Shown here piece by piece: positions 3,550 through 5,310 of a stretch of 5,545 bases of DNA; positions within the stretch are counted from its first letter, which is position 1; the number at the start of each line of letters is the position of its first letter. Both the position numbers and the translations under genes were made by a program. Origin of the DNA: Candidatus Bathyarchaeota archaeon (lineage in GTDB: Archaea > Thermoproteota > Bathyarchaeia > 40CM-2-53-6); the NCBI GenBank assembly GCA_005888695.1, contig VBBH01000157.1, forward strand, positions 1-5,545, given 5' to 3'. A model generated the notes under the pieces. The model saw only the letters and a list, made by a program, of their open reading frames with translations, was not told where the DNA came from and did no database searches.

Positions 3550-3768
3550 TCAGAGTTTAGAATCGATCTCAGGTCCGACCACGAGGTCCACTCTCAGCGA
3601 CTTCATCAACTCAACGAAGTTGGCCGTCGGAGGATTCACGAATCTGTATTCGTAGAAATAATAACCAACCTCGGAGTCGGACGCTGGCACAATTTTCACC
3701 AAGACAGTGTGTAACGTCTTCCCGCTATGCTCGACCGAGTCACGAACGACGAGGAACGGGTACAAGAG
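3550..3768 (-). pseudogene. Middle fragment of the broken PD-(D/E)xK nuclease-like gene
   Basis: This fragment follows the TAG at 3771-3769 in the same frame and ends at a TGA (3552-3550). It reads LLYPFLVVRDSVEHSGKTLH then TVLVKIVPASDSEVGYYFYE and later NFVELMKSLRVDLVVGPEID. The beginning completes the helix expected after the ExK motif, where RecB-type nucleases have Q-x-x-x-Y: with the TAG read as its likely ancestor CAG it becomes QLLYPF. The rest alternates beta strands and helices, as in the second half of a restriction-enzyme-like fold. A TTG at 3765 could restart translation, but there is no ribosome-binding site and the fragment alone has no fold of its own. Together with the part before the stop it would form a nuclease domain. 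Confidence 0.5.
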
Positions 3769-4320
3769 CTACAGAAGGATAAAACTGCGGGACGCATCCG
3801 TTTTCGCTTCGAACAAATAGACATCGGTTGCTGTCTCGATACAATAGTCCAAGTCGAGCTGCACGTTTTGAAGGTTTACGGGAAAAATAGCACCCTGCTT
3901 GTCTTTCAACAGTATGTCGGCCTTCGGGAGATTCATCTTGCCGAAGATGCCGTGTGTTATTCTAGTGGAATCCGGTAAGTCAAATGCGGCCTTGAAAACC
4001 CCGGTCTCAAATGCGAGACTGAGATACTTTGCTTCAGTAGAGATTTTGACAAGCAGAGATGCAGGAATGTCCTTTCTACCGACCGTCACAATCACAGTGC
4101 GGTCCACCGTCTCGGGGATAGGAACGAATAGCTTCGCCTTTGTAAGCACAGCGGTCCCGATTCCTACCCTTAACGGGACGAGGCCGTGTTTCTGGAGGAA
4201 TGGGAACCTGGTCAGAGAAGAATTGGAATAGATGGGAATAAGGAGACGGGGCTCACCGAACTCGCTTATTACCTTCCGACTGATGATCTGTGAAACGAAA
4301 GGTATGGAATCCTGAGACAA
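3769..4320 (-). CDS. N-terminal fragment of a PD-(D/E)xK nuclease-like protein (broken gene)
   Basis: 183 codons from a TTG to an in-frame TAG. The N-terminal half (FGEPRLLIPIYSNS, HGLVPLRVGIGTAV, LFVPIPETVDRTVIVTVG) looks like a mixed alpha/beta domain I do not recognise. The end carries a plausible PD-(D/E)xK core: LDLDYCIE (Asp156 or Asp158), a turn, then VYLFEAKTD (Glu171-x-Lys173) followed by a helix SRSFILL. In this fold the Asp, Glu and Lys bind metal and cut DNA. The stop falls at codon 184, exactly where Gln of a Q-x-x-x-Y helix would stand, and the protein resumes in frame on the other side. The TTG start has GAAGGT just before it; the TATA-like box is too close for that start, so the true start may also have been lost. 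The function is probably DNA cleavage, perhaps defence; this copy is likely inactive. Confidence 0.5.
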   Translation of the reverse strand: MSQDSIPFVSQIISRKVISEFGEPRLLIPIYSNSSLTRFPFLQKHGLVPLRVGIGTAVLTKAKLFVPIPETVDRTVIVTVGRKDIPASLLVKISTEAKYLSLAFETGVFKAAFDLPDSTRITHGIFGKMNLPKADILLKDKQGAIFPVNLQNVQLDLDYCIETATDVYLFEAKTDASRSFILL

Positions 4321-4551: not shown

Positions 4552-4908
4552 CTATGAGCCGATTCTTTGCGTCGCCTGCTCGACAGTGGATAGGGCCTCC
4601 CAAAGCGATGGCAGTTCCGTTTTACTGAGGATCAGCCTTGGGGGGTGTGCCGGATGGACAAGTCGATTTCTCCATCTGATCAGGCTTGAGAGAGCTTTTG
4701 TTTGACCTAGTTTCGCGTGGAGCTGGGGAGTTTTCTGGACAATCGTAATCTTATCCGAAAACTGACAACAAGAAAGCATATCGTAGTCTACACGCGATTT
4801 CTTGTCCAACGAATATCGCTCATCGAGGAATTCTAACGCTGTTGGGGAAAGTTTAGTCCTCCACCAGCCAATATCCCCTGTGCGAGAGATCAAAGCAGAT
4901 AATTTCAC
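4552..4908 (-). CDS. HEPN-like domain fragment of the CBS-HEPN gene
   Basis: A 118-codon ORF from a GTG to a TAG, mostly helical: KLSALISRTGDIGWWRTKLS, SPTALEFLDERYSLDKK, DYDMLSCCQFSDKITIVQK, then SSLIRWRNRLVHPAHPPR. Arg80, Asn81 and His85 form the R-N-x3-H signature of HEPN RNases and related nucleotide-binding HEPN proteins. The GTG at 4908 is probably not a true start: coding sequence of the same frame extends upstream (DILAFE) and joins the CBS 2 segment once a base is restored at 4919-4922. It ends 64 bases before the small acidic ORF. As a free-standing product it would be a HEPN domain without its CBS regulator. Confidence 0.6.
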   Translation of the reverse strand: MKLSALISRTGDIGWWRTKLSPTALEFLDERYSLDKKSRVDYDMLSCCQFSDKITIVQKTPQLHAKLGQTKALSSLIRWRNRLVHPAHPPRLILSKTELPSLWEALSTVEQATQRIGS

Positions 4909-4916
4909 TTCAAAAG

Positions 4917-5060
4917 CTAAAATATCATGTAAAGCATAACACGAATCGTAGGCTTGTTCAGGTCGGCATGCGTGATAATGCCTCGCGGGTTTTGTGCGGT
5001 TCCTACTATCAGAATTGTAGAATCATCTTTTTCGTAACTCACAGCAATGCGAAAAGGCTT
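4917..5060 (-). pseudogene. CBS domain 2 segment in the shifted frame
   Basis: This stretch codes for KPFRIAVSYEKDDS, ILIVGTAQNPRG, IITHADLNKPTIRVML and YMIF before a TAG at 4919-4917. It is missed by simple ORF finding because it has no start codon of its own. The motif RGIITHADL is diagnostic of the last strand and helix of a CBS domain. It fits directly onto the upstream fragment (frame 1) and the downstream HEPN fragment (frame 1 again), which locates the two indels to short A/T runs at its two ends. Confidence 0.65.
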
Positions 5061-5310
5061 CCAGCAAGTGCGCAGATAGTTTCACGATTAGATTATTCGT
5101 TGGCAAGACAACTCTGGAATGAAGATCGAGAATTCCCCCAACTGAACCTTCACGCGTCAAGGGAATGTAATCGAAGATATCAAGCCAATGCGAAGAATAT
5201 CGGAACGCTCCATCAAAATACGGCTCAGTTTGAACCATGTCCCATGGGGTCATTATTTCGCTCACTTGAAACTTGGACCTTGTGATGACCTCGTGCAACG
5301 ACTCGAGCAT
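5023..5310 (-). CDS. CBS domain 1 fragment of the CBS-HEPN gene
   Basis: The 95-codon ORF as it stands in the sequence. Residues 1-78 are genuine CBS-type sequence (EIMTPWDMVQTE; DYIPLTREGSVGGILDL; LIVKLSAHLLEAF). The last residues after the T-run (SHCCELRKR) are frameshifted and meaningless, ending at a TGA. A transcript from the promoter at about 5338 would start within a few bases of this ATG. If the frameshift is real, only half a CBS pair is made, which is unlikely to fold well. Confidence 0.55.
   Translation of the reverse strand: MLESLHEVITRSKFQVSEIMTPWDMVQTEPYFDGAFRYSSHWLDIFDYIPLTREGSVGGILDLHSRVVLPTNNLIVKLSAHLLEAFSHCCELRKR

Follow-up and report, generated by a model that had tools for sequence, protein, structure and literature searches.

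The 5,545-nucleotide stretch of DNA analyzed here (positions 1 to 5,545 of contig VBBH01000157.1 from a Candidatus Bathyarchaeota archaeon; its whole length is hereafter the window) contains on its minus strand, at 4552..5310, a gene for a protein with two CBS domains followed by a HEPN domain, which is interrupted by two frame changes in the sequence as read. The gene belongs, in broken form, to a small and distinct CBS-HEPN subfamily; the idea behind such proteins has already been published and the type of system already tested. It probably represents a damaged one-protein defense ribonuclease (RNase), gated by a nucleotide via its CBS pair and perhaps acting as a back-up to restriction. To the published picture the present analysis adds a linkage to restriction genes (6/17 loci), an interrupted DUF6997 gene as the neighbor, and a sister form with a MESH1/SpoT-like domain.

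Architecture and conservation of the interrupted gene

A read-through of the window pieces, joined by X, was searched against ~5.8 billion proteins at an E-value cut-off of 0.01 and recovered only three: P0001 (253 residues, 53% identity over 99% of the query, E 1.3e-76) and P0002 (254 residues, 50% identity, E 1e-74), both intact and full length, and P0003 (199 residues, E 3e-63). A chance match is excluded by these values, which range from 1e-76 to 3e-63, and the single-chain protein postulated in the preliminary description has intact, full-length counterparts in P0001 and P0002. In P0003, the HEPN part is shorter by ~60 internal residues but retains the R-N-x3-H motif; the protein is either damaged or a minimal form.

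Translation of the minus strand from 5310 to 4552 yields one protein from three consecutive pieces in two frames. The first, an open reading frame (ORF) at 5023..5310, encodes the first CBS domain and runs into the second, with homology extending to ~5056; the middle piece at 4920..5060, in the other frame, supplies the remainder of the second CBS domain; and the last, at 4552..4917, encodes the C-terminal HEPN part. When P0001 was aligned by tblastn to the raw, unjoined window, its residues 1-252 fell on 5310-4561 in frame -2 (E 6e-64) and its residues 84-130 on 5060-4920 in frame -3 (E 4e-13). The outer two pieces are thus in the same frame, with the middle one in a second, and the alignment of an intact homolog across the raw sequence shows a single gene with two frame changes, ruling out a pair of unrelated short ORFs. 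The two frame changes had been anticipated near the runs at 5052-5055 and 4919-4922, where they indeed lie, whereas the third frame proposed along with them does not exist. Short homopolymer runs occur at both changes, and the homology is in register on either side. A programmed frameshift was also considered and set aside, as the homologs are encoded in a single frame and the damage of the neighboring gene is of another kind.

Both ligand-binding and catalytic residues are retained in the broken copy. The middle segment carries the second-CBS motif GIITHADL at 4959..4982 of the minus strand and matches residues 84-130 of P0001, supporting its initial recognition as a CBS domain from the string RGIITHADL; the Rx4H motif of the HEPN domain (RNRLVH, of the R-N-x3-H form) lies at 4654..4671 of the same strand. 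In an alignment of 17 relatives (A8, which omits P0003 and L002, both included in A6, as well as the cut-off L013, L016-L018, the HD-containing forms discussed below and the haloarchaeal L040-L047), the Asp of GIITHADL and the Arg and His of the HEPN motif are each invariant in 17/17. The HEPN motif is missing in L038 and L046, and L002, matched by neither the CBS nor the HEPN models of Pfam, owes its membership to the alignment alone.

The domain assignment draws on structure models of P0001, which stands in for the broken window protein. Its model, with a pLDDT (predicted local distance difference test) of 84, shows a Bateman module formed by two packed CBS repeats, with the CBS fold beginning at about residue 14, followed by a HEPN-like helical bundle bearing R-N-x3-H. 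The C-terminal part belongs to the HEPN domains by both its helical bundle and its Rx4-6H motif, and the order CBS-CBS-HEPN obtained in the preliminary description by rejoining the pieces, along with the bundle expected at its C-terminus, is recovered in the model. The best structure match for the HEPN part is Csm6; this part was judged mainly from the list headed by Csm6, CBS chains filling most rows in the structure-match list of the second model. An earlier AlphaFold2 model with a poor CBS half, for which a Foldseek search was not significant, was superseded by that with pLDDT 84. The family scores of P0001 stay under the Pfam cut-offs, with 15.8 bits for CBS (PF00571; cut-off 24) and 19.3 bits for HEPN_RiboL-PSP (cut-off 28.4). 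Neither P0002 and P0003 nor the window pieces matched Pfam CBS, and the best Pfam HEPN score in the wider family is 22.9 against a cut-off of 27.5 (HEPN_Swt1, in L027). The PADLOC model PDC-M34B matches L001 (1.7e-6), L003 (1.5e-4) and P0005 (0.0032) and gave no match in P0001, P0003, P0006 or L004.

The close family has few members: beyond the three proteins above, a profile search brought in just P0004 and P0005 (E <=0.1), and such searches found no member in genome contigs, viral contigs or the sequences of solved structures. Wider relatives are present in bacteria and haloarchaea alike, the short form without an HD domain being patchy in its distribution; the profile search for this wider family found none in viral contigs, and P0001 had no match among phage records. 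A plasmid of Halorientalis marina (NZ_CP095490.1) carries the gene twice with equal score, at 251237-251974 and 364491-365228.

Relationship to DS-11 and other HEPN systems

Proteins with CBS and HEPN domains in one chain, some with an HD domain, were reported in 2013 by Anantharaman et al., who proposed that nucleotide sensing controls RNA stability (PMC3710099). In 2026, the DefensePredictor study presented DS-11, a one-protein CBS and HEPN system that blocks phage in E. coli; its defense is abolished by replacing either Y157, a predicted ATP contact, or the HEPN catalytic residues, and an adenine derivative, stated to be still undiscovered, is suspected as its ligand (PMC13092281). A literature search for CBS-HEPN fusions as such returned PMC13092281 alone, a broader one combining HEPN, CBS domain and RNase adding PMC3710099 and an enterococcal paper. 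The original idea of a ligand-gated defense RNase is therefore sound as an inference, and no longer new.

A 365-residue CBS-HEPN protein, encoded in 127 of 5426 complete E. coli genomes and with its CBS match starting at 133, has Tyr at exactly residue 157 (LMLRHDYSQLPVM) and is probably DS-11, an identification made from this Tyr rather than from the published DS-11 sequence. In the one genome viewed, its gene has nothing but an integrase on the upstream side; a distant DNA search of E. coli genomes with L017 gave no result. A four-member alignment of the E. coli protein compared by hhalign with the wider family of the window protein aligns across both domains (probability 99.1, E 1.7e-18, 211 columns), and with the close family alone it still reaches a probability of 82.3 (E 1e-5). 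The two families share a CBS module and a HEPN domain homologous along the same chain, the Rx4H motif, and an aromatic residue at the position of Y157, namely F46 in the window (5173..5175, minus strand) and Y46, F46 and Y46 in P0001-P0003, respectively. They differ in that the probable DS-11 has an N-terminal extension of ~120 residues before the CBS pair, whereas the window protein is of a 253-residue class and its copy is broken. Since this extension is lacking, we regard the window family as a relative of DS-11 belonging to another subfamily. The proteins of Anantharaman et al. (alr3009 and gi 118580987 of Pelobacter) resemble it in the CBS-HEPN fusion and the proposed ligand-controlled RNA stability; they carry, or are cited with, an HD domain, unlike the window form, in a comparison by description only (PMC3710099).

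Further parallels are offered by HEPN systems with other sensors. Csm6 is likewise a HEPN RNase governed by a nucleotide-binding domain on the same chain, with the difference that this is a CARF domain, responding to cyclic oligoadenylates from type III CRISPR, instead of a CBS pair. The anticodon nucleases PrrC and RloC, which are linked to restriction systems, are comparable as HEPN RNases tied to restriction as a second line, but they sense via NTPase (nucleoside triphosphatase) domains, where the window family would use its CBS pair. PrrC is listed as a HEPN member (PMC3710099).

Restriction linkage and the damaged neighborhood

We viewed 17 loci of the form lacking both the HD domain and the DS-11 extension, including L047, with its own longer N-terminus, and L002, without Pfam support; ten are on haloarchaeal plasmids, the set having been partly picked by searching plasmids. 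A restriction-type gene is found within ~5 kb in six of them (L001, L003, L019, L020, L041 and L044). In L020, the CBS-HEPN gene overlaps hsdM by 4 bp and heads an hsdM-hsdS-unknown-hsdR cluster; in L003 it follows an MmeI-type enzyme by 62 bp, with Abi_2 and DUF4917 genes nearby; and in L019 an HNH nuclease gene precedes it by 58 bp and an Eco57I-type enzyme by 2.4 kb. L001 has Mrr near the CBS-HEPN gene with a small gene between, L041 an AspBHI-type nuclease at 2.6 kb, and L044 an annotated restriction endonuclease at 4.5 kb. In L023 the gene, cut by the contig end, overlaps an SNF2/NOV_C helicase gene by 4 bp. No restriction-type gene was seen at L002, L004, L021, L022, L040, L042, L043, L045, L046 or L047, several of which were scanned partly or by annotation only, L022 also lying near a contig end. 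Taken as a rough control, the HsdM-type methyltransferase family (PF02384) has 33 matches in the seven whole genomes concerned and lies within 5 kb of CBS-HEPN in two of the seven (G034 and G314), the chance of at least two being ~0.007. As this test was framed post hoc and defense genes cluster generally, it supports a defense setting rather than a specific partnership.

Several further features of the haloarchaeal loci are recorded here. In 8 of the 10 plasmid loci (not L002 and L047), a related gene of 115-127 residues stands divergently 78-122 bp upstream of CBS-HEPN (L001:5509-5856, L040:4540-4896, L041:4533-4889, L042:4530-4886, L043:4530-4886, L044:4524-4880, L045:4522-4878, L046:4521-4904); it had no Pfam match in the two scanned and could be a regulator or an antidote. 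An ADP-ribosylglycohydrolase gene is near CBS-HEPN in three of the ten (L043:5874-6854, L044:3248-4156, L046:8987-9913). The 490-residue Haladaptatus protein L047:4077-5549 carries ahead of CBS-HEPN a long part resembling a methyltransferase by eye; as CBS is the sole Pfam match in the protein, this part was not counted as a restriction link.

In the window itself, the gene downstream of CBS-HEPN on the same strand encodes a DUF6997 protein (3550..4320, minus strand, the N-terminus not being fixed; Pfam PF22518, 1.8e-11) with an in-frame stop inside the aligned core, across which three intact homologs align by tblastn against the window (22-23% identity, E 4e-6 to 6e-4). DUF6997 is over the cut-off in 3/398 sampled genomes, which are close relatives, a fourth weak match (L053) being left out of the locus count. 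In all three loci (L054:3589-4359, L055:3614-4384, L056:3311-4081) it is flanked by two methyltransferase genes, one for a D12-class adenine enzyme and the other for an N6/N4 enzyme, an arrangement we take to be that of DpnII-type systems, and this position makes DUF6997 a probable restriction endonuclease. Inspection of the alignment by eye shows a D...EAK pattern, with EAK kept in the window, that would fit a PD-(D/E)XK nuclease, and DUF6996 is also present in the one DUF6997 locus scanned. A Pfam scan of the window proteins recognized no methyltransferase. The DUF6997 profile had no match in plasmids and none in 100 genomes of the phylum of genome G001, where the control genomes were silent too; comparison with solved structures returned two chance-level rows only, and literature searches for DUF6997 and DUF6996 found nothing. 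The window thus places CBS-HEPN next to a gene for a probable restriction enzyme, both damaged as read.

Four other genes of the window are open. GNAT (808-1305), glyoxalase (1753-2151) and thioesterase (2196-2627) genes have Pfam family matches over most of the profile; an SNase gene (3290-2640, minus strand) matches 80/107 profile positions and its end may be missing. The SNase gene has a hydrophobic N-terminal stretch and Cys-containing repeats and possibly encodes a membrane-anchored nuclease; a link to CBS-HEPN was considered and found no support.

A serious alternative, to which we give somewhat less than an even chance, is that the frame changes arose in sequencing or assembly and that the gene is intact in the organism: this accords with the short homopolymer runs, the homology in register and the retention of catalytic and ligand residues. 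The in-frame stop in the aligned core of DUF6997 is, against this, a different kind of damage. Moreover, at the rate of three breaks in 1530 bp, the three open genes with good profile coverage (1329 bp) would be expected to carry 2.6 breaks (P(0) 0.07), and 3.9 would be expected once the SNase gene is added (1980 bp; P(0) 0.02), in an estimate made post hoc from small numbers. Because the SNase gene matches only 80 of 107 positions, it counts for less as an intact gene, which raises the odds of read error somewhat. The contrast between intact neighbors and a broken pair weakly favors decay of a small defense locus over evenly spread read error.

The HD-containing long form and the predicted mode of action

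Thirteen further matches in longer open frames came from 369 sampled genomes of one bacterial class, and the count of HD domains was made on ten of them (without L030, L036 and L037), the long form thus being confirmed in 10/369 genomes. These proteins (L026-L029, L031-L035 and L038; 439-541 residues) combine HD, CBS and HEPN domains, with the N-terminal HD motifs WLHDxVED and KLAD in 10/10 and R-N-x3-H in 9/10, L038 being the exception. The HD domain is HD_4 of Pfam in the three scanned (1.5e-16 to 9.6e-19), and in the one protein searched against the PDB it is nearest to MESH1, followed by the Rel/SpoT hydrolases (best 2.2e-17). The rest of the chain is homologous to the wider CBS-HEPN family (hhalign with seven long forms: probability 100, E 1.5e-40, 241 columns). 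An HD domain, though not its MESH1/SpoT-like subtype, is mentioned by Anantharaman et al. in the accessible text (PMC3710099), and a literature search found no link of a MESH1/SpoT-like HD with CBS-HEPN in the accessible parts of its sources.

Because a cis-acting alarmone hydrolase precedes the sensor, the domain order suggests that the nucleotide sensed by CBS-HEPN may be alarmone-like, and the long form may possibly be a self-resetting, alarmone-gated RNase. A more specific scheme, which we advance only tentatively, would have CBS-HEPN proteins in general as alarmone-gated RNases responding to a (p)ppApp- or (p)ppGpp-like ligand made or depleted in infection; the hydrolase of the long form would be the off-switch, whereas the short form would leave removal of the signal to the host, as a fail-safe wired into restriction loci. 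Of these ligands (p)ppApp would fit best, since an adenine derivative is inferred by the authors of DS-11 (PMC13092281).

The same long form lends itself to another reading, in which these proteins are regulators of the stress response rather than phage-defense proteins: the CBS pair would sense an alarmone or the adenylate energy charge, HEPN would trim RNA in starvation, and the HD form would both sense and hydrolyze the signal. The consistent HD motifs, their affinity to MESH1 and the recurrence of the long form in the class sampled are compatible with it, but the patchiness of the short form, its proximity to restriction genes and its presence on haloarchaeal plasmids (in a set partly chosen from plasmids), together with the defense against phage by the tested one-protein relative (PMC13092281), make it unlikely. 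Far less plausible still is HEPN as a non-catalytic scaffold or antitoxin-like partner, with the CBS pair controlling something else: motif loss occurs in some HEPN families (PMC3710099), as in L038 and L046, but Arg and His are invariant throughout A8 and DS-11 requires its HEPN catalytic residues (PMC13092281).

We hence favor a nucleotide-gated defense RNase. As judged from the intact relatives, the two CBS domains would form one nucleotide-binding module ahead of the HEPN ribonuclease domain in a protein that is probably dimeric. The CBS pair is predicted to bind a nucleotide that responds to phage infection, probably an alarmone or adenine derivative; binding would reposition the HEPN dimer and switch the Rx4H site, whereupon HEPN would cut cellular or phage RNA and phage growth would stop. 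Protection from phage and the need for both domains have been demonstrated in the relative DS-11 (PMC13092281). A fair share of the loci viewed combine the gene with restriction systems, and it would perhaps act as a second line when restriction fails or is attacked.

For the window, this means that a broken locus of the defense type escapes plain ORF calling. For the family, the HD-fused relatives narrow the nucleotides to be tried as the ligand of DS-11 to a short list, and the recurrence of CBS-HEPN next to restriction enzymes suggests that a second line of defense is built in.
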